Shown here: one piece after another, positions 25,936 to 32,745 of the stretch
Numbering within the stretch: position 1 is the stretch's first letter
Layout: each line of letters opens with the position of its first letter
Assembly (NCBI GenBank): GCA_024641425.1
Contig: JAHEDC010000006.1
Coordinates: 1,578 to 35,020, forward strand
Direction: 5' to 3'
From: Verrucomicrobiales bacterium
GTDB taxonomy: Bacteria; Verrucomicrobiota; Verrucomicrobiia; Verrucomicrobiales; DEV007
Length of the DNA: 33,443 bases
Made by a program: the position numbers and the translations under genes
The notes under the pieces: model-generated
What the model was told of the DNA's origin: nothing
What the model saw: only the letters and a program-made list of their open reading frames with translations
Database searches by the model: none

Positions 25936-27225
25936 TCATCCCAGAAGCGCGTTGAGCCGCTCGGTTTCGGGGATGACGAAGGGATACCTCTCGCTGAAGG
26001 GATGCTTCTCGATGCCCGCGAACTCCCGGAGGGCGAGATGGATGTGTTCGGGGCGGATGCGGAGGCCCTTCTCGGCGTCGTCCTCGAGGGCGAGGGTCTG
26101 GGGATTGATCGGAACGAGGAACTGGCCGTCGTCGGTTTTTCCGATGACGCGGTTACCCTTGACCCCAGCTCCAAGGAACATCATCGAACCGATGGACCAG
26201 TGGTCTTTCCCCTCGCCCTTGTTGTAGTTGGGGGTGCGGCCCATCTCGCTCTGCATGACGACGACGAGTTTGTCCCGGATGCCGAGTTCCTCCGCGCGGC
26301 GGAGGGTGTAGTCGATACCCGCGAGCAGCTCCGGGATCAGATCCATCTGGTCGCGGTCGTTGTTGGCGTGGCTGTCGAACTGGCCGATGGAAAGGTTCGC
26401 CGAAACACAGACCCCGGCCTTGAAGGAAGCGAGGGCAATCTCCGCCTGCTGGGAAAGCCGCGCCTTCGGGTTTTCGGCGGGAATGAAGGGGGTGACCCGC
26501 TGGAGCGCCTTCGCATTGAGTTGGGCAGCGTAGAGCATGCTCTCGGATCTTTCGACACGCGGGAGCCGGGCGCTCGCGAGGCGGGTGTCGCGCTGCCCCT
26601 TGAGCGCGGCCTCGATCCGCGCCTCGACGAAATCCTCATGGAAGGGAGAGGCGGGATTGCCTTCGACATAGTCGGCGTTGGCGATGAGCTTCAGCGTTGG
26701 CAAATACGGCACGCGGGCCATGGGGACAAGGTTACCCGTCGCGGAGTAGTTCCCGAAGGTGAGGAAGGCGAGCGGACATGCCGGGCCGTTGCAGGCTGCG
26801 ACGAGCGCGGCGAAAGTCGGGTAGGCGAGGCTGTCGAGCTTGCCCGTCGCCATGTAACGGGAACAGGGTGCATGGTTGTTGACCGAGTAGTCGAGACCAT
26901 TGAGGACAAGTAACTCCCTGCCATAGCGACGGAAGAAGTCCTCGTTGCTCAGGCCTTTTTCCTTCGCGATATGCGCCGTGTTCGGAGCGTAGCGAATGTT
27001 TCCCTCGGTGAGGATGTCGCCTTGTTTGTAAAGGCGGTTGATCTCCCCGACGCCTTTCGGGTCCATAAGATAGGTCGTGTCCCACCCGCCGGAAGCATTG
27101 AAGACAACGTAGTACGGCCCGCCGTAAGGATCGGGCTCCCTCGTGGCCGCGCGCGCCACCCTTCCGACAGGTGCCGCCACGCCGAGCCCGGCGAGACCGC
27201 AGAGTTTGAGGAAATCACGTCTCAT
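25936..27225 (-). CDS. DUF1501 domain protein with Tat-type signal
   Basis: This 429-residue protein starts MRRDFLKLCGLAGLG, a twin-arginine signal peptide, so it folds in the cytoplasm before export. The body has the DUF1501 (sulfatase-like) pattern: VVFNASGGWDTTYLMDPKG, LLVLNGLDYSVNNHA, QFDSHANND, then KLVVVMQSEMGRTPNYNKGEGKDHWS, with histidines and aspartates placed as metal ligands. DUF1501 genes regularly follow Planctomycete-type cytochrome genes, and this gene starts 9 bases after the stop of the one at 27235. The pair is assumed to work together in the periplasm, but its reaction is not known. Confidence 0.9.
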   Translation of the reverse strand: MRRDFLKLCGLAGLGVAAPVGRVARAATREPDPYGGPYYVVFNASGGWDTTYLMDPKGVGEINRLYKQGDILTEGNIRYAPNTAHIAKEKGLSNEDFFRRYGRELLVLNGLDYSVNNHAPCSRYMATGKLDSLAYPTFAALVAACNGPACPLAFLTFGNYSATGNLVPMARVPYLPTLKLIANADYVEGNPASPFHEDFVEARIEAALKGQRDTRLASARLPRVERSESMLYAAQLNAKALQRVTPFIPAENPKARLSQQAEIALASFKAGVCVSANLSIGQFDSHANNDRDQMDLIPELLAGIDYTLRRAEELGIRDKLVVVMQSEMGRTPNYNKGEGKDHWSIGSMMFLGAGVKGNRVIGKTDDGQFLVPINPQTLALEDDAEKGLRIRPEHIHLALREFAGIEKHPFSERYPFVIPETERLNALLG

Positions 27226-27234
27226 GATGGTCGG

Positions 27235-29547
27235 TTATTCATAAAGGAATTCATGTTGCCGGAGAAGATAGGTGACCACAGCTCGCCAGGCCCTGTAAGT
27301 GTATAGCGGATCGGACACGCGCTTTTCTTCCTTGCTCTCCCGGCAGGACCAGATCTCCAGTTCCTCGAAGCCCTTCGGCTTGCTCCGGGCGTCCTCGATC
27401 ACTCCCGCGAAAAGCGCAAACGTACGGTCAACCTCCGGGGCGTCGACAGTCTCACGTCTTCCAAGCAGATGCTCGTGCAGATGAACGATGGCGGCCCGGA
27501 TTCTCGCCTCCGCCTCCGCACCACCGGGCACCACATCGGGTTCGATGCCGGGGAAAAGCCGTCGCTTCTCCGGATCGTGGGCGAAGTCGTAGGCGACGTT
27601 CCGGCAGGCCATCTCGTTCGCCATCATCCGCTGGATCGCCCCCATCGCGCCGCTCGGGTCGGCGAGGCGCTCGGTGACTTCCTGGGCGTCGATGCCACCG
27701 TAGAGGATCAGGAAGGCTTCCTTGTCCTTGAGCCGTCCCCAATCGCGCCCGAAGAGGGCGTTCAGCTTGCGTTCGAGTTGTTCGGGAGAAAGGAGGCGCG
27801 CGAGCCCGAGGTCGTCGAGTTCCGCTTTTCGTGCCGGATTGGCGGCGATGGTGGCAAGACCGTCGGCGCGGTAGAAAGGCGAGACCGCGAGTTCGCGGAA
27901 GACATCCTTGAGATTGAACCCCGCCGCCGCGAAGCGCTTCGCGATCGCATCGATCTCGTGCCGCTGCTCGCGGAAGGCTCGCTGCCTCGCGTCGAAGAGC
28001 GGGTCGTCGATGTCCTCCGGAGGCAAAAGCGTTTTACGTCCTGTCAGGATATACCAGACGTGCTCGACCATGGCCACGGCGAAGCGGGGATCCTTGACGG
28101 TACGCTCGGCGAGCCATTGGAGTGAACGCCAACGCTCCTCCTCCGGCAAGGCCTCACCTTCCAGTCCCGGCGGGAACATGTCGGTGAACCAACCGTCCTT
28201 CCGCCGGAGATAGACGCCGTTTCCGTCGAGCGCGTAGTAATCCTGGAAGAGCCCCGCCACGGGGTCGATCACTTTGTGACAGACGACGCAGTCGGCAGCC
28301 TCCATCGTCGGATTCCTGAATTTCGCGGTGATGGCGGCGGCATCGTTCCCGCGGGGGGCGAGCTGCATGATGTCGACACCAAGAAAGTGCTGGAAATACA
28401 TGCGTACGCGCAGACGGTTCCGGTTCGTCTCCGTCGTCGGATAACGCTTCAGATACTGGAAGGTGCTCAGCAGACCCGCGTGGGGATAAAAGCCGGTGGC
28501 CGATTCCTGATTCGTGCTCTCGCTGCGGCCTTTCAGTGCCTTCAGCTTCACCGGGATGTATTCGAGATAGTTGTCCGGATCCTTGAAGCGTTCCCTGACT
28601 TCGTCATAAATGCCGTAACCGCGCGCGGTGTGCGGCGTGACCATGACATAGTCCGCATTGATGATTTCCGTGAACGGGCGATCCTCGCGCACGATGTGCT
28701 TGATCATCGCCATCGGCTCCCCCTTCATCGCCTCGCGGTATTCGTCGGCGAGCCTCCAGCCCGCCCTCTGGCGTTCCTTCTCATCCGCAATGGCGCTGAA
28801 GTCCCACTTCTGATACCAGTGCCGGGTTTGCTCGAAATGCTCGTAGGAGAGAACATTTTCCGCCACGTCGTCGATGCCGGGGGTGAGGAAGATGTCGTTG
28901 AATCCCTCGGCGAGACGGTCGTAGAAGGCCTCCGCGTTCATGACACGGTCGAGGATTGATGGCACCGCGTCCAATCCGCCGCTCTCGACCGCCGCCTTTT
29001 CCTCAGCCGTCGGAAGGCGGGCGTTAAGCGAGAGGGTCAGGCGGCGCAGCAGTCCACCGTCATCGATCAAGGTCACGCCGTCGAAGAAGGGTACTCTCTC
29101 GGCCCCGGCAATGGGAGGGGACAAGGACGCGGCTCCGGTCGTGCGGCGGACAAATTCCTCGAGAATCCGGTAGCGGGTCGAATCGGGAGCAAGCACATCC
29201 TCCCCTCCATGGTCGAGCTTGCCAACGACTTTCAGCAGCATCGTCGATTGCCCGTTTTCCCGGACGGCGGCTATCTTCGTGAAGGCCCTGCGGTTGTGCG
29301 GCATCGGGTCACCGGCATCGGTATGGCGGGACGGATCACGCAGGATGAAATCGCTGTCCTCGGCGTCCCCGCCGGCCTTGTGGCACTTCAGGCAGGTGCG
29401 GGCCCCGACCTTGGTCCAGACTTCGTCGACGAAGAAATCGGCTTCCTCGGCAAAACATTCCGGTCCGGGATGCACGTCCTTGGCCCCTTGGAGCTGCGCT
29501 CCGGGCAAGAGCACGAGAAGGCAGAAGAGAGTTTGGTGGAAATTCAT
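27235..29547 (-). CDS. Planctomycete-type cytochrome c protein (DUF1549/DUF1588-like)
   Basis: This 770-residue secreted protein (signal peptide residues ~1-22) has a first haem site at C52-L-K-C55-H56 and a second at C420-V-V-C423-H424, followed by KVIDPVAGL as in DUF1588-type domains. The middle (LLRRLTLSLNARLPTAEE, then AEAFYDRLAEGFNDIFL) resembles DUF1549. Related proteins use several domains in this order and pair with DUF1501 or DUF1552 partners. The C-terminal ~200 residues are poorly matched to any family I know. The role is presumed redox or hydrolytic on a periplasmic substrate. It starts at ATG 29547, 45 bases after the CRTAC1/thioredoxin reading frame, and probably shares an mRNA. 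Confidence 0.85.
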   Translation of the reverse strand: MNFHQTLFCLLVLLPGAQLQGAKDVHPGPECFAEEADFFVDEVWTKVGARTCLKCHKAGGDAEDSDFILRDPSRHTDAGDPMPHNRRAFTKIAAVRENGQSTMLLKVVGKLDHGGEDVLAPDSTRYRILEEFVRRTTGAASLSPPIAGAERVPFFDGVTLIDDGGLLRRLTLSLNARLPTAEEKAAVESGGLDAVPSILDRVMNAEAFYDRLAEGFNDIFLTPGIDDVAENVLSYEHFEQTRHWYQKWDFSAIADEKERQRAGWRLADEYREAMKGEPMAMIKHIVREDRPFTEIINADYVMVTPHTARGYGIYDEVRERFKDPDNYLEYIPVKLKALKGRSESTNQESATGFYPHAGLLSTFQYLKRYPTTETNRNRLRVRMYFQHFLGVDIMQLAPRGNDAAAITAKFRNPTMEAADCVVCHKVIDPVAGLFQDYYALDGNGVYLRRKDGWFTDMFPPGLEGEALPEEERWRSLQWLAERTVKDPRFAVAMVEHVWYILTGRKTLLPPEDIDDPLFDARQRAFREQRHEIDAIAKRFAAAGFNLKDVFRELAVSPFYRADGLATIAANPARKAELDDLGLARLLSPEQLERKLNALFGRDWGRLKDKEAFLILYGGIDAQEVTERLADPSGAMGAIQRMMANEMACRNVAYDFAHDPEKRRLFPGIEPDVVPGGAEAEARIRAAIVHLHEHLLGRRETVDAPEVDRTFALFAGVIEDARSKPKGFEELEIWSCRESKEEKRVSDPLYTYRAWRAVVTYLLRQHEFLYE

Positions 29548-29592: not shown

Positions 29593-30861
29593 TCACTCGC
29601 GCGGCCCTGCGACCCGTCGCGCCATGAAGGCCTCGACGTGGGCGGGGGCGAGCGGATTCGTGAACCAGGTGCCCGCGAGCGGCGGGGCGAGGTGATAGAG
29701 CTGTCGCGCGTCGGCCCCCTTGATCGCCTGCCACTCGCCGAGGACATCGGCGACGGCGAAGGGCCCGCGATGAAGGGCAACCGCGCGACCGGCCTCGTCA
29801 AGCAGGAGGGCCAGCGGCACCGAATCGGCGGGCGTGCGGTCGAAGAGCGCGCTTTGAAATTGGTGGACACGCGCCGTGGAGCCGCCGTCGAGGAATCCCC
29901 AAGGGAAGGGGAACTGCAAACGGTCGATGAGACGGTAGGTGTCCGAGGTGTCGTCGGCGGGGCCGTTGGGCCCGTCCACGGAGAGCGCGAGGACGTCCAA
30001 CCCGGCGGCGCGGATCGTCGCGGCCGCTTCCGCAAGGTCGCGGAGTTCCTTTCGGCAATGCGGGCAGCCGCTCGACCAGAGCACGAGCAGGCGTGGCTTA
30101 CCCTCCGGGCGCAAGTCCAAGGCCTGTGCCGCCGCATCGCGGTACGTCACGCTCGGCATCGGCACCCGATTCGGAAGGAGGATCCGGGCGGTTCCATCAT
30201 CGACCGGCACCGTCGGTGATGTCCCCGCATCAAGGAGGGTGGCCGTGCGCTTCGCCTTCGCCTGCCAGGGCGCGGCCACTCCGGTGCCTTCCTTCAAGAC
30301 GAAGCGCCCCCCGCCCGTGAGCCCGGTGAACGACTCGCGCGTTCCGCCCGGCCAGAGGACGGTCGCTTCCGTGACCGGGCCCGCATCCCCGAGGCCGAAG
30401 TGCAGCCACTTGCTCGACTGGGAGAGGAACAAGTCCCCGGCGCGCACCGAGCGGACGAGTCGCGGGCCCGCGGTCGCGGTGACTACTTCAACGACCGCGC
30501 CAATCCCGTTCCGATTGCTCCGCGTCCCCTCCAGTCGCACCGCGAGCGAAGGGGTCCCGTCCGCGACGCGATTCCGCATCAGGCGGAGGCGCGGGGCCGT
30601 GCGATTCCGGAACCAGAGGTCGAGGTCGCCATCCTGGTCCCAATCGACCACCGCCATCCCTCGTCCGTCGTCGGGAAAGTCGAAACCGCCGAGCCGCGAA
30701 GCTTGGTGGAAGCCGCCCTTCGTATCATTGAGGAAAAACCGGTTCCGTTCGTTGCCGCTCCACGAGTGCCCGTTCCGCACGAGATCCATCAGCCCCGTCC
30801 AGCCCTCGGCGTAACGGTCGACCTTCGACTTGTCGGCAACATCGGCGGGAGCGGGCGACAC
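29593..30861 (-). CDS. ASPIC/UnbV and thioredoxin-like C-terminal half, in frame after a TGA
   Basis: This 422-codon frame begins at a GTG (30861) seven codons after the TGA of the preceding frame and in the same phase. The intervening codons read SFFWRQV, which looks like continuation of the first half. It has a VCBS-like calcium loop DWDQDGDLDLWFRN (residues ~72-86) and an ASPIC/UnbV segment (~118-180: NGIGAVVEVVTA, LGLGD, VLWPGGTRESF). A thioredoxin/TlpA-like domain follows (~240-375), with C266-P-H-C269 in LVLWSSGCPHCRKELRDL. With no signal peptide of its own it would be cytoplasmic if translated alone, unlike the family, which argues for one protein by readthrough. It precedes the cytochrome gene by 45 bases. 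Confidence 0.82.
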   Translation of the reverse strand: MSPAPADVADKSKVDRYAEGWTGLMDLVRNGHSWSGNERNRFFLNDTKGGFHQASRLGGFDFPDDGRGMAVVDWDQDGDLDLWFRNRTAPRLRLMRNRVADGTPSLAVRLEGTRSNRNGIGAVVEVVTATAGPRLVRSVRAGDLFLSQSSKWLHFGLGDAGPVTEATVLWPGGTRESFTGLTGGGRFVLKEGTGVAAPWQAKAKRTATLLDAGTSPTVPVDDGTARILLPNRVPMPSVTYRDAAAQALDLRPEGKPRLLVLWSSGCPHCRKELRDLAEAAATIRAAGLDVLALSVDGPNGPADDTSDTYRLIDRLQFPFPWGFLDGGSTARVHQFQSALFDRTPADSVPLALLLDEAGRAVALHRGPFAVADVLGEWQAIKGADARQLYHLAPPLAGTWFTNPLAPAHVEAFMARRVAGPRE

Positions 30862-30885
30862 GACCTGTCGCCAGAAGAAGCTTCA
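30854..30885 (-). promoter_or_regulatory. SECIS-like hairpin directly after the in-frame TGA
   Basis: On the minus strand, after TGA 30885-30883 and ten bases, GGCGACA (30872-30866) pairs perfectly with TGTCGCC (30860-30854) around the loop GGTCG. The GGUC loop begins 17 bases after the TGA, close to the 18 bases in E. coli fdhF, whose SECIS apical loop is also GGUC. The bulged U of the E. coli element is absent here. The hairpin lies inside coding sequence, so part of the match may come from protein conservation. Confidence 0.5.
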
Positions 30886-32745
30886 CAAGTCATCCTCGCG
30901 GGTATTGGTGAGATACCCGTTCGCGACCGCGATGTCCTCCCAGCCGTCGTTGTTGAAATCGGCGAGGGCCGAACTCCAGGCCCAGCCGCCGAGCGCGGCT
31001 CCGGCTTCGAGACTGACATCGGTGAAGGCCCCGCCTTCCCCGGAACCCGCGAAAAGACTGTTCCCCCGCGCCATCCGCTGTAACCCGGTGATCGCGTCCT
31101 CTTTCTGTCCCGTCGCGAACTGCCGCTGGTAGGCGACACGGCTTCCGGCAGAAGAGAACATATTCCCGACATACAGATCCGCCGCGCCGTCGCGGTTGTA
31201 ATCCCCCCACGCGACCGACATTCCCGCCGCCATGTCCTCGACGCCCGACTCTTCCGCGATCTCGGTGAAATGACCCCTGTCGTTCCTGTAGAAACAATTC
31301 CTTCCGAAGTCATTCGCGACGTAAAGATCCGGATCGCCGTCGCGGTCGTAATCCTCCCACGCGGCGGCGAAACTCCAGCGCGTGTTATGCGCCTTGAGTC
31401 CGACTTCGTCGGTCACATCCCCGAAGCGGAACTGCCCCGTGTTTTCGAGCAACACATTCCGTCCGCCATTGTTCGCGTCGTTGAAGGGAATCGGCGACCT
31501 CGCCTCGAAGCCACGCTTCCCGCTCAGCGCGTCATCGCCCGCCCCGTAGACACAGGCGTAAATGTCGAGATCGCCGTCATTGTCGTAGTCGGCCGCGCTC
31601 AGCGAGAACGGATATTGCGCGCCCGGATGACCACCGCGGAGGATGAACTTACCCGCGCCGGTGTTCTCCGCGAAGGCGATCATCGCGATCGTGGCCACGA
31701 CCAGATCCTCGTCGCCATCGTTGTCGAGATCGACAAGGAGCGCACTCCGCGAATCCTCCAGCCAGTCGACTCCCCAGTCGGCGGCCGCCTCGACCGCGCT
31801 GCCGTCGGGTTGCTGGAGATACAATTGATTGGGCAGACTTCCCGCGTCGCAGACATAGACGTCCTCCAGACCGTCGCCGTTGACATCGCCGATCGCGATC
31901 CCGTGGTGGCCGGTCATCGACATATCGCCGAAGTAAGTGATACGCTGGGCCCAGTATTCGATACCCCGCAGCACCTGCGCCCCGAAGCGCGGATTCCGTC
32001 CAAGCGCCGCCGCCGTGCGCTCCTCGAAAAACGGCTTCGTCCCGCGGACTTCCTCGAATTCCTCCACCCGGAGTAGCCGCAGGCGCGGAGGCTCGGCCAC
32101 CTGCCACTCGCAGGACCAGACGCCGCTCCGTTCCACCACCGCGTCGCCTTCTCTCGCATCCGTTTCGAAATGCGACCGGGTGACGAAGGTCTCGCCGGAA
32201 ACCTCGACCCCGATCATCTTGAAATGGATCTTCTCCGGCTCATCCGTCAGCGTCCGCAGGAGCGCGGGGAAGTGATCCGCCGAAACCGGCACGGGTGCGC
32301 CGTCCTCTCCGCGCAGCGCCGTCGCGCGGAATTCTTCCGCGAGGACTTCCCCGGCGTCCGCCCCTGAAACGAGTTTCTTCAACTGCCCCAACGCTGCCTG
32401 CGAAAGCGCCTCGCTCGGCCAATCCGCCCCGGGCGCGACCGCCGCCAGCGCGCGCCCCAGCGACGCCGGCTCCGCCGCGAAGGCTTTTGGGGAAACCGCC
32501 GGCCGCCCTTCGCCCGCCTCCGGAAGGCGATCCACGCGCTCCAATTGCCGCAGCCGCAGTGGCACCAGTTCGTCCCGCACCTCCCGCCGCTTGACCTCCG
32601 GTCGATCCGACTCCTTCTCCCCACACCCGGCTACAAGCCCGCAGCTCGCACAGGCGCACGCGAGGGAGAGTAGTTTCTGGAGCAGGGAAAACACTCCGCA
32701 CAGAGCCAGACAGCCGGGGCCGGGGCAAGGAGAATTCGATTCCAC
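30883..32745 (-). CDS. CRTAC1-like VCBS-repeat lipoprotein, N-terminal half ending at a TGA
   Basis: This 620-residue frame starts at GTG 32745; GTG 32694 may be the better start because it gives a tighter signal peptide. The lipobox LVAGC puts the lipidated cysteine at 41. Residues ~45-270 are a family-specific region. From ~284 come FG-GAP/VCBS calcium-loop repeats: GDVNGDGLEDVYV, DLDNDGDEDLVV, DYDNDGDLDIY, DYDRDGDPDLYV, DYNRDGAADLYV and DFNNDGWEDIAV. Together they make a beta-propeller as in CRTAC1. The frame ends at TREDDL-TGA. The DNA after the TGA stays in frame through SFFWRQVVSP into the ASPIC/UnbV and thioredoxin half. It is likely an envelope lipoprotein and the first gene of the minus-strand run. 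Confidence 0.85.
   Translation of the reverse strand: MESNSPCPGPGCLALCGVFSLLQKLLSLACACASCGLVAGCGEKESDRPEVKRREVRDELVPLRLRQLERVDRLPEAGEGRPAVSPKAFAAEPASLGRALAAVAPGADWPSEALSQAALGQLKKLVSGADAGEVLAEEFRATALRGEDGAPVPVSADHFPALLRTLTDEPEKIHFKMIGVEVSGETFVTRSHFETDAREGDAVVERSGVWSCEWQVAEPPRLRLLRVEEFEEVRGTKPFFEERTAAALGRNPRFGAQVLRGIEYWAQRITYFGDMSMTGHHGIAIGDVNGDGLEDVYVCDAGSLPNQLYLQQPDGSAVEAAADWGVDWLEDSRSALLVDLDNDGDEDLVVATIAMIAFAENTGAGKFILRGGHPGAQYPFSLSAADYDNDGDLDIYACVYGAGDDALSGKRGFEARSPIPFNDANNGGRNVLLENTGQFRFGDVTDEVGLKAHNTRWSFAAAWEDYDRDGDPDLYVANDFGRNCFYRNDRGHFTEIAEESGVEDMAAGMSVAWGDYNRDGAADLYVGNMFSSAGSRVAYQRQFATGQKEDAITGLQRMARGNSLFAGSGEGGAFTDVSLEAGAALGGWAWSSALADFNNDGWEDIAVANGYLTNTREDDL

Follow-up and report, generated by a model that had tools for sequence, protein, structure and literature searches.

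Does a TGA in the middle of a long reading frame end a gene, or is it read as selenocysteine (Sec)? This question is raised by a locus in the window, the 33,443-nucleotide stretch of DNA from a Verrucomicrobiales bacterium that we analyzed (contig JAHEDC010000006.1 of assembly GCA_024641425.1). Read from the GTG at 32745 on the minus strand, the frame comprises 1050 codons and a terminal TGA at 29593, and an internal TGA (30885-30883) leaves 620 codons on its 5' side and 429 on its 3' side in one frame. An initial annotation had taken the two halves as one protein and proposed a candidate selenoprotein. The frame is indeed continuous, as are the homologs across the TGA, and from the SECIS hairpin and the family-wide conservation we consider it very likely that the gene encodes a selenoprotein in which UGA specifies Sec within one continuous chain, an inference from comparative analysis made without expression or protein data. 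The proposal is supported, and none of the outcomes that had been named as refuting it occurred. The likely start is GTG 32694 (codon 18), immediately 5' of the signal peptide, rather than GTG 32745, so that residue numbers counted from 32745, as they are here, may be 17 too high. The earlier placement of Sec at residue 621 in a protein with a CxxC domain stands as regards the CxxC, which is present as CPHC, and is less secure as regards the number.

The product had also been described as a CRTAC1/ASPIC-UnbV/thioredoxin lipoprotein, and this was borne out by Pfam matches to FG-GAP, UnbV_ASPIC and TlpA-like domains and by a lipobox in the translation (Table 1). PF13517, PF01839 and PF07593 all score above their Pfam cut-offs, so that the protein qualifies as an FG-GAP propeller joined to UnbV_ASPIC. 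In an AlphaFold2 model (mean pLDDT 88.8, pTM 0.90), residue 621 starts a helix (621-629) that is inserted in the propeller. The best match in both sequence and fold is murine CRTAC1 (PDB 9etn, E 5.6e-24), and the PDB matches of the C-terminal domain are ResA/TlpA/DsbE-type thioredoxins. The window protein stops after this domain; most homologs run 100-300 residues further, and TPR repeats are found in this C-terminal extension in the longer homologs that were scanned. Immediately 3' of the selenoprotein gene are two genes for DUF1592 (PSD4) and DUF1501 proteins (25936-29547, minus strand). A search for a conserved operon gave no counterpart of these two genes in the sequence, up to 3 kb, flanking 80 related loci.

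Table 1. Features of the predicted selenoprotein gene (positions in the window; residues numbered from GTG 32745).
Feature	Positions	Strand	Basis
Predicted selenoprotein gene, complete	29593-32745	minus	Single internal TGA in a continuous frame; homologs unbroken across the TGA
Putative lipobox LVAG-C (lipoprotein signal-peptidase site between G and C)	32623-32637	minus	Read off the translation, no predictor
FG-GAP/CRTAC1-like beta-propeller, residues about 280-740, carrying the predicted Sec	30526-31908	minus	Pfam FG-GAP_3, E 2.4e-40
Predicted Sec UGA codon, Sec621	30883-30885	minus	TGA in 80/80 related loci; Cys in sister clade
Predicted SECIS hairpin, coding for W-R-Q-V-V-S-P	30854-30872	minus	Covariation, codon bias, missing from non-UGA homologs
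UnbV_ASPIC domain, residues 747-810	30316-30507	minus	Pfam PF07593, E 7.3e-14
TlpA/ResA-like thioredoxin domain, residues 862-1008	29722-30162	minus	Pfam AhpC-TSA, 1.8e-7; TlpA/ResA/DsbE-type PDB folds
CPHC redox motif (Cys894, Cys897) of the thioredoxin domain	30055-30066	minus	Conservation in 48 homologs

The TGA is a fixed feature of a large family. A contig scan of genomes yielded 80 related loci, with identities as low as about 40%, in Verrucomicrobiota and Planctomycetota, and every one of them has TGA at the aligned codon within the motif (D/G)DL-TGA-SFFWRQVV. The SFFWRQV that follows the TGA is thus family sequence, as had been supposed. Family members were found in 74 of 387 genomes sampled from the order and in 74 of 294 from the phylum Planctomycetes, and nearly all the strong matches in these two samples contain exactly one TGA. 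When 289 genomes from across the phylum were searched at E 1e-60, only the window's genome gave the family; presence was therefore tested within the order and in the Planctomycetes sample. In all, more than 100 relatives spanning two bacterial phyla share the UGA together with the hairpin. Because the same TGA recurs in independent genomes and in paralogs, a sequencing error at 30883-30885, one of the ways in which the proposal might have failed, is excluded. The terminal stops of these genes are TGA, TAG or TAA, the window gene itself ending in TGA, which shows that UGA is not reassigned and agrees with the earlier judgment that genome-wide reassignment was unlikely.

The window's genome carries three further TGA-bearing paralogs, one of them from a divergent subfamily. 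This divergent fourth copy reads DVDL-TGA-SNLWRTVV, has its own GGUC-loop hairpin, and belongs to a second subfamily of this selenoprotein. Elsewhere, single genomes hold as many as 15 (G433) and 12 (G386) UGA-containing copies, which by themselves would make up much of a selenoproteome; the largest selenoprotein totals reported for bacteria are 57-63 (2026 review, PMC13188914).

A hairpin follows the UGA, as the initial annotation had reported, and its 7-bp stem, its GGUCG loop and the distance of 17 bases from the TGA to the GGUC were all confirmed. The arms GGCGACA (30872-30866) and TGTCGCC (30860-30854) enclose the loop GGTCG (30865-30861); the stem begins 11 nucleotides downstream of the UGA, after 10 unpaired bases, and 17 bases intervene before the GGUC. 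In E. coli fdhF, 18 bases lie between UGA and GGUC. Folded alone, the window sequence is unremarkable (80 nucleotides, z = -0.86), so a single sequence is insufficient and it is the comparison of homologs that settles the hairpin. Among 126 sequences (122 distinct), 96.3% of the base-pair cells at the six conserved inner stem pairs are paired, and double-sided changes occur in 48 cells, versus 7.7 on shuffled alignments and no more than 16 when the register is slid. One middle pair is found as A-U, G-U, G-C, C-G and U-A. This covariation, proposed earlier as a check on the hairpin, comes about through codon choice, with Arg CGA, CGC or CGG accompanied by Ser TCG, Ala GCG or Pro CCG, respectively. 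Codon usage at the site is likewise skewed compared to the rest of the same genes: the Gln codon is CAG in 100% versus 59% elsewhere, the first Val codon GTC in 82% versus 40%, and the next Val codon GTG in 92% versus 37%. The Leu codon just before the UGA (30886-30888) is TTG in 84%, versus 13% of Leu codons elsewhere in these genes, and this preference for UUG suggests that the 5' context affects how UGA is decoded. The hairpin is also lost where the UGA is lost, since 113 of the 139 homologs with UGA have all six pairs and none of the 25 without it does (p = 9e-18, indicative only as the sequences are related).

The general model for bacterial SECIS elements calls for a loop of 3-9 nucleotides, a stem of 4-16 bp, a G in the first two loop positions, a distance of 16-37 nucleotides from the UGA and a minimum free energy of at most -7.5 (PMC13188914). 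With a 5-nucleotide GGUCG loop, a 7-bp stem and a spacing of 17 nucleotides, the hairpin fits this model, and the 45 nucleotides after the UGA fold at -12.7 kcal/mol. The missing bulged U, which had been counted against the hairpin, is thus not a weakness.

The genome also encodes machinery for Sec insertion, which the initial annotation had suggested looking for. ARAGORN identifies a tRNA-Sec with anticodon tca (UCA) at 60.9 bits (cut-off 47), near a gene that reads as EF-G, and a full-length SelB is found at a contig end with 293.7 bits against a curated cut-off of 242.25. selA is present only as a C-terminal fragment at another contig end. All three are on contigs other than the window's, in a metagenome-assembled genome (MAG) that is fragmented and 5.5% contaminated. 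Of the 387 genomes sampled from the order, 59 have the family together with SelB, 15 the family alone, 49 SelB alone and 264 neither (Fisher p = 8e-26); selB is accordingly found in 59 of the 74 family genomes versus 49 of the 313 others. The 15 family genomes without selB are mostly incomplete or have only weak family matches. Similarly, SelB exceeds its cut-off in 24 of the 31 genomes that yielded family loci versus 15 of 289 across the phylum.

We also asked which residues replace Sec in homologs, a comparison that the initial annotation had framed as Cys or another residue. A sister clade of seven sequences from four genomes has Cys there, in the context DY-C-(T/S)..W, as is expected of some homologs of a selenoprotein. 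Most non-UGA homologs do not have Cys, however, and carry Glu, Ala, Gln, Asn, Arg or His; none of the homologs was found to have Trp there. Replacement by such varied non-Cys residues suggests that activity has been lost in those paralogs. A tree of 100 sequences, built by a quick method and with some long branches, requires a minimum of six changes between Sec and non-Sec.

Could the UGA be a true stop, with translation of a second protein re-initiated shortly after it, for instance at the conserved GTG of Val629? The codon is GTG in 92% of the homologs that have Val there, as re-initiation would predict, but the hairpin accounts for this GTG as well, the split would land within the propeller, and SFFWRQVV is conserved at the protein level 5' of the GTG. 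Nor does re-initiation explain the association with selB, the replacement of UGA by Cys or the loss of the hairpin together with the UGA, and we regard it as very unlikely. The same low standing is given to the idea that UGA is read as an amino acid other than Sec, by near-cognate suppression or a reassigned code (as Trp, for instance). The diversity of residues in non-UGA homologs could be taken in its favor; however, TGA terminates many of the same genes, including that in the window, Trp was found at the position in no homolog, and the genome has both tRNA-Sec and selB to go with a hairpin that covaries as a SECIS element should. An assembly error or a decayed gene might be suspected in a MAG with the fragmentation and contamination noted above. 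We give this practically no credence: it is refuted by the recurrence of the TGA in independent genomes and paralogs, and about 430 residues downstream are conserved in frame.

If the UGA is decoded as Sec, what might the residue do? Among 48 aligned homologs, Sec621, Ser663, Glu666, Cys894 and Pro977 are invariant, with Pro977 corresponding in position to the cis-proline of thioredoxins, and Cys897 is present in 43 and replaced by Ser in 4. The thioredoxin domain is found in 139 of 146 Sec homologs; among the 7 without it, 4 are truncated where the available sequence ends. By pattern, the Sec homologs that bear the domain have CxxC in 121 cases and CxxS in 7; some Sec homologs have no clear CxxC or no thioredoxin domain, three complete ones among the latter. 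In contrast, all 7 non-Sec homologs that keep the domain lack both cysteines, with for example WSVEDRNS or WATWDAPS in place of the WSSGCPHC of the window protein. Homologs L182-L188 have Glu, Gln or Ala for Sec, and in them the thioredoxin-like domain is kept and both cysteines are gone. An independent-pairs test of this co-loss of Sec and CxxC found few events, only 1-2 pairs. Ser663 (30757-30759) occurs in 145 of the 146 Sec homologs but in only 4 of 25 non-Sec homologs, and is a candidate partner residue for Sec. In non-Sec homologs, including the Cys clade, residue 663 is mostly Asn or Ala.

These observations lead us to propose a model. SelB carrying Sec-tRNA(UCA) would bind the hairpin just 3' of the UGA, with its GGUCG loop at a 17-nucleotide spacing, and the ribosome would insert Sec to give a single full-length lipoprotein. 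The residue would then sit at the start of the short helix (DDL-U-SFFWRQVV) inserted in the CRTAC1-like FG-GAP propeller, where its selenol would probably be the catalytic group of an oxidoreductase of the cell envelope, with unknown substrate. The fused TlpA-like thioredoxin domain, through its CPHC, may re-reduce Sec after it has acted on a substrate in the envelope. Location in the envelope (inferred from the lipobox), redox catalysis and passage of electrons from CxxC to Sec are held with moderate confidence, as there is no biochemistry and the Sec-CxxC distance is unmeasured.

The Sec could instead have a structural, metal-ligand or substrate-binding role, with the thioredoxin domain acting separately. 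Three complete Sec homologs do without the domain, the Sec lies in a propeller and not in a thioredoxin fold, and the residues that replace it are often non-redox. Against this, many redox selenoproteins likewise have Sec at the start of a helix. Cys894 is invariant, and the non-Sec homologs that keep the thioredoxin domain no longer have the CxxC, though the losses are few. We therefore think a non-redox role unlikely; it remains possible, because the redox relay rests on few independent evolutionary changes. In its fullest form, the proposal of a redox enzyme is that of a large and widely duplicated family of propeller-based selenoenzymes in Verrucomicrobiota and Planctomycetota, with as many as about 15 Sec paralogs in one genome, in which the propeller Sec is regenerated by a thioredoxin on the same chain, a catalytic design not previously described. 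We lean only slightly toward this reading as a whole.

The mode of decoding is the canonical one; what appears to be new is the protein family, along with a Sec on a propeller beside a built-in thioredoxin. None of the 119 prokaryotic selenoprotein families in a 2026 review (PMC13188914) is an FG-GAP, VCBS, CRTAC1 or ASPIC family, and the review does not mention Planctomycetes or Verrucomicrobia. Nothing alike is found among the families that it credits to Haft 2025 (PMC12013261). A paper on a Porphyra planctomycete (PMC4807772) does describe Sec genes in Planctomycetes. No selenoprotein model of NCBIfam 20.0 (June 2026) matched above its cut-off, with weak thioredoxin-domain matches only, and the family is not named in deep-Sep 2025, the 2016 survey or the GOS survey. 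We found no FG-GAP, CRTAC1, UnbV or propeller selenoprotein in the open literature; closed-access papers and preprints were outside this search, and a prior mention is possible.

A conserved selenoprotein family with many members would be split at its UGA whenever the standard code is applied, and its Sec would be placed in a beta-propeller and not in the usual thioredoxin-like or molybdoenzyme folds. The finding also points to a redox role in part of the CRTAC1/ASPIC-UnbV family, about whose function little is known. Since one genome can hold 12-15 UGA paralogs, the use of selenium by Verrucomicrobiota and Planctomycetota has probably been underestimated.

Like bacterial selenoproteins with a SECIS directly after the UGA, such as formate dehydrogenase, the system described here has tRNA-Sec, SelB and a hairpin whose loop starts with GGU; it differs from the formate dehydrogenase type in that the predicted Sec is carried by a beta-propeller lipoprotein. 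With CRTAC1 and other FG-GAP/ASPIC-UnbV proteins (murine CRTAC1, PDB 9etn) the family shares an FG-GAP propeller followed by UnbV_ASPIC, to which it adds Sec, the helix insertion that bears it, a TlpA-like thioredoxin fused to the chain and C-terminal TPR repeats in those longer relatives that were scanned. The C-terminal domain has the fold and CxxC of the membrane-anchored reductases TlpA, ResA and DsbE (PDB 1jfu, 2f9s); here, however, it is only one module, and the Sec lies outside it, unlike in the known Sec-containing TlpA or Prx-like proteins.
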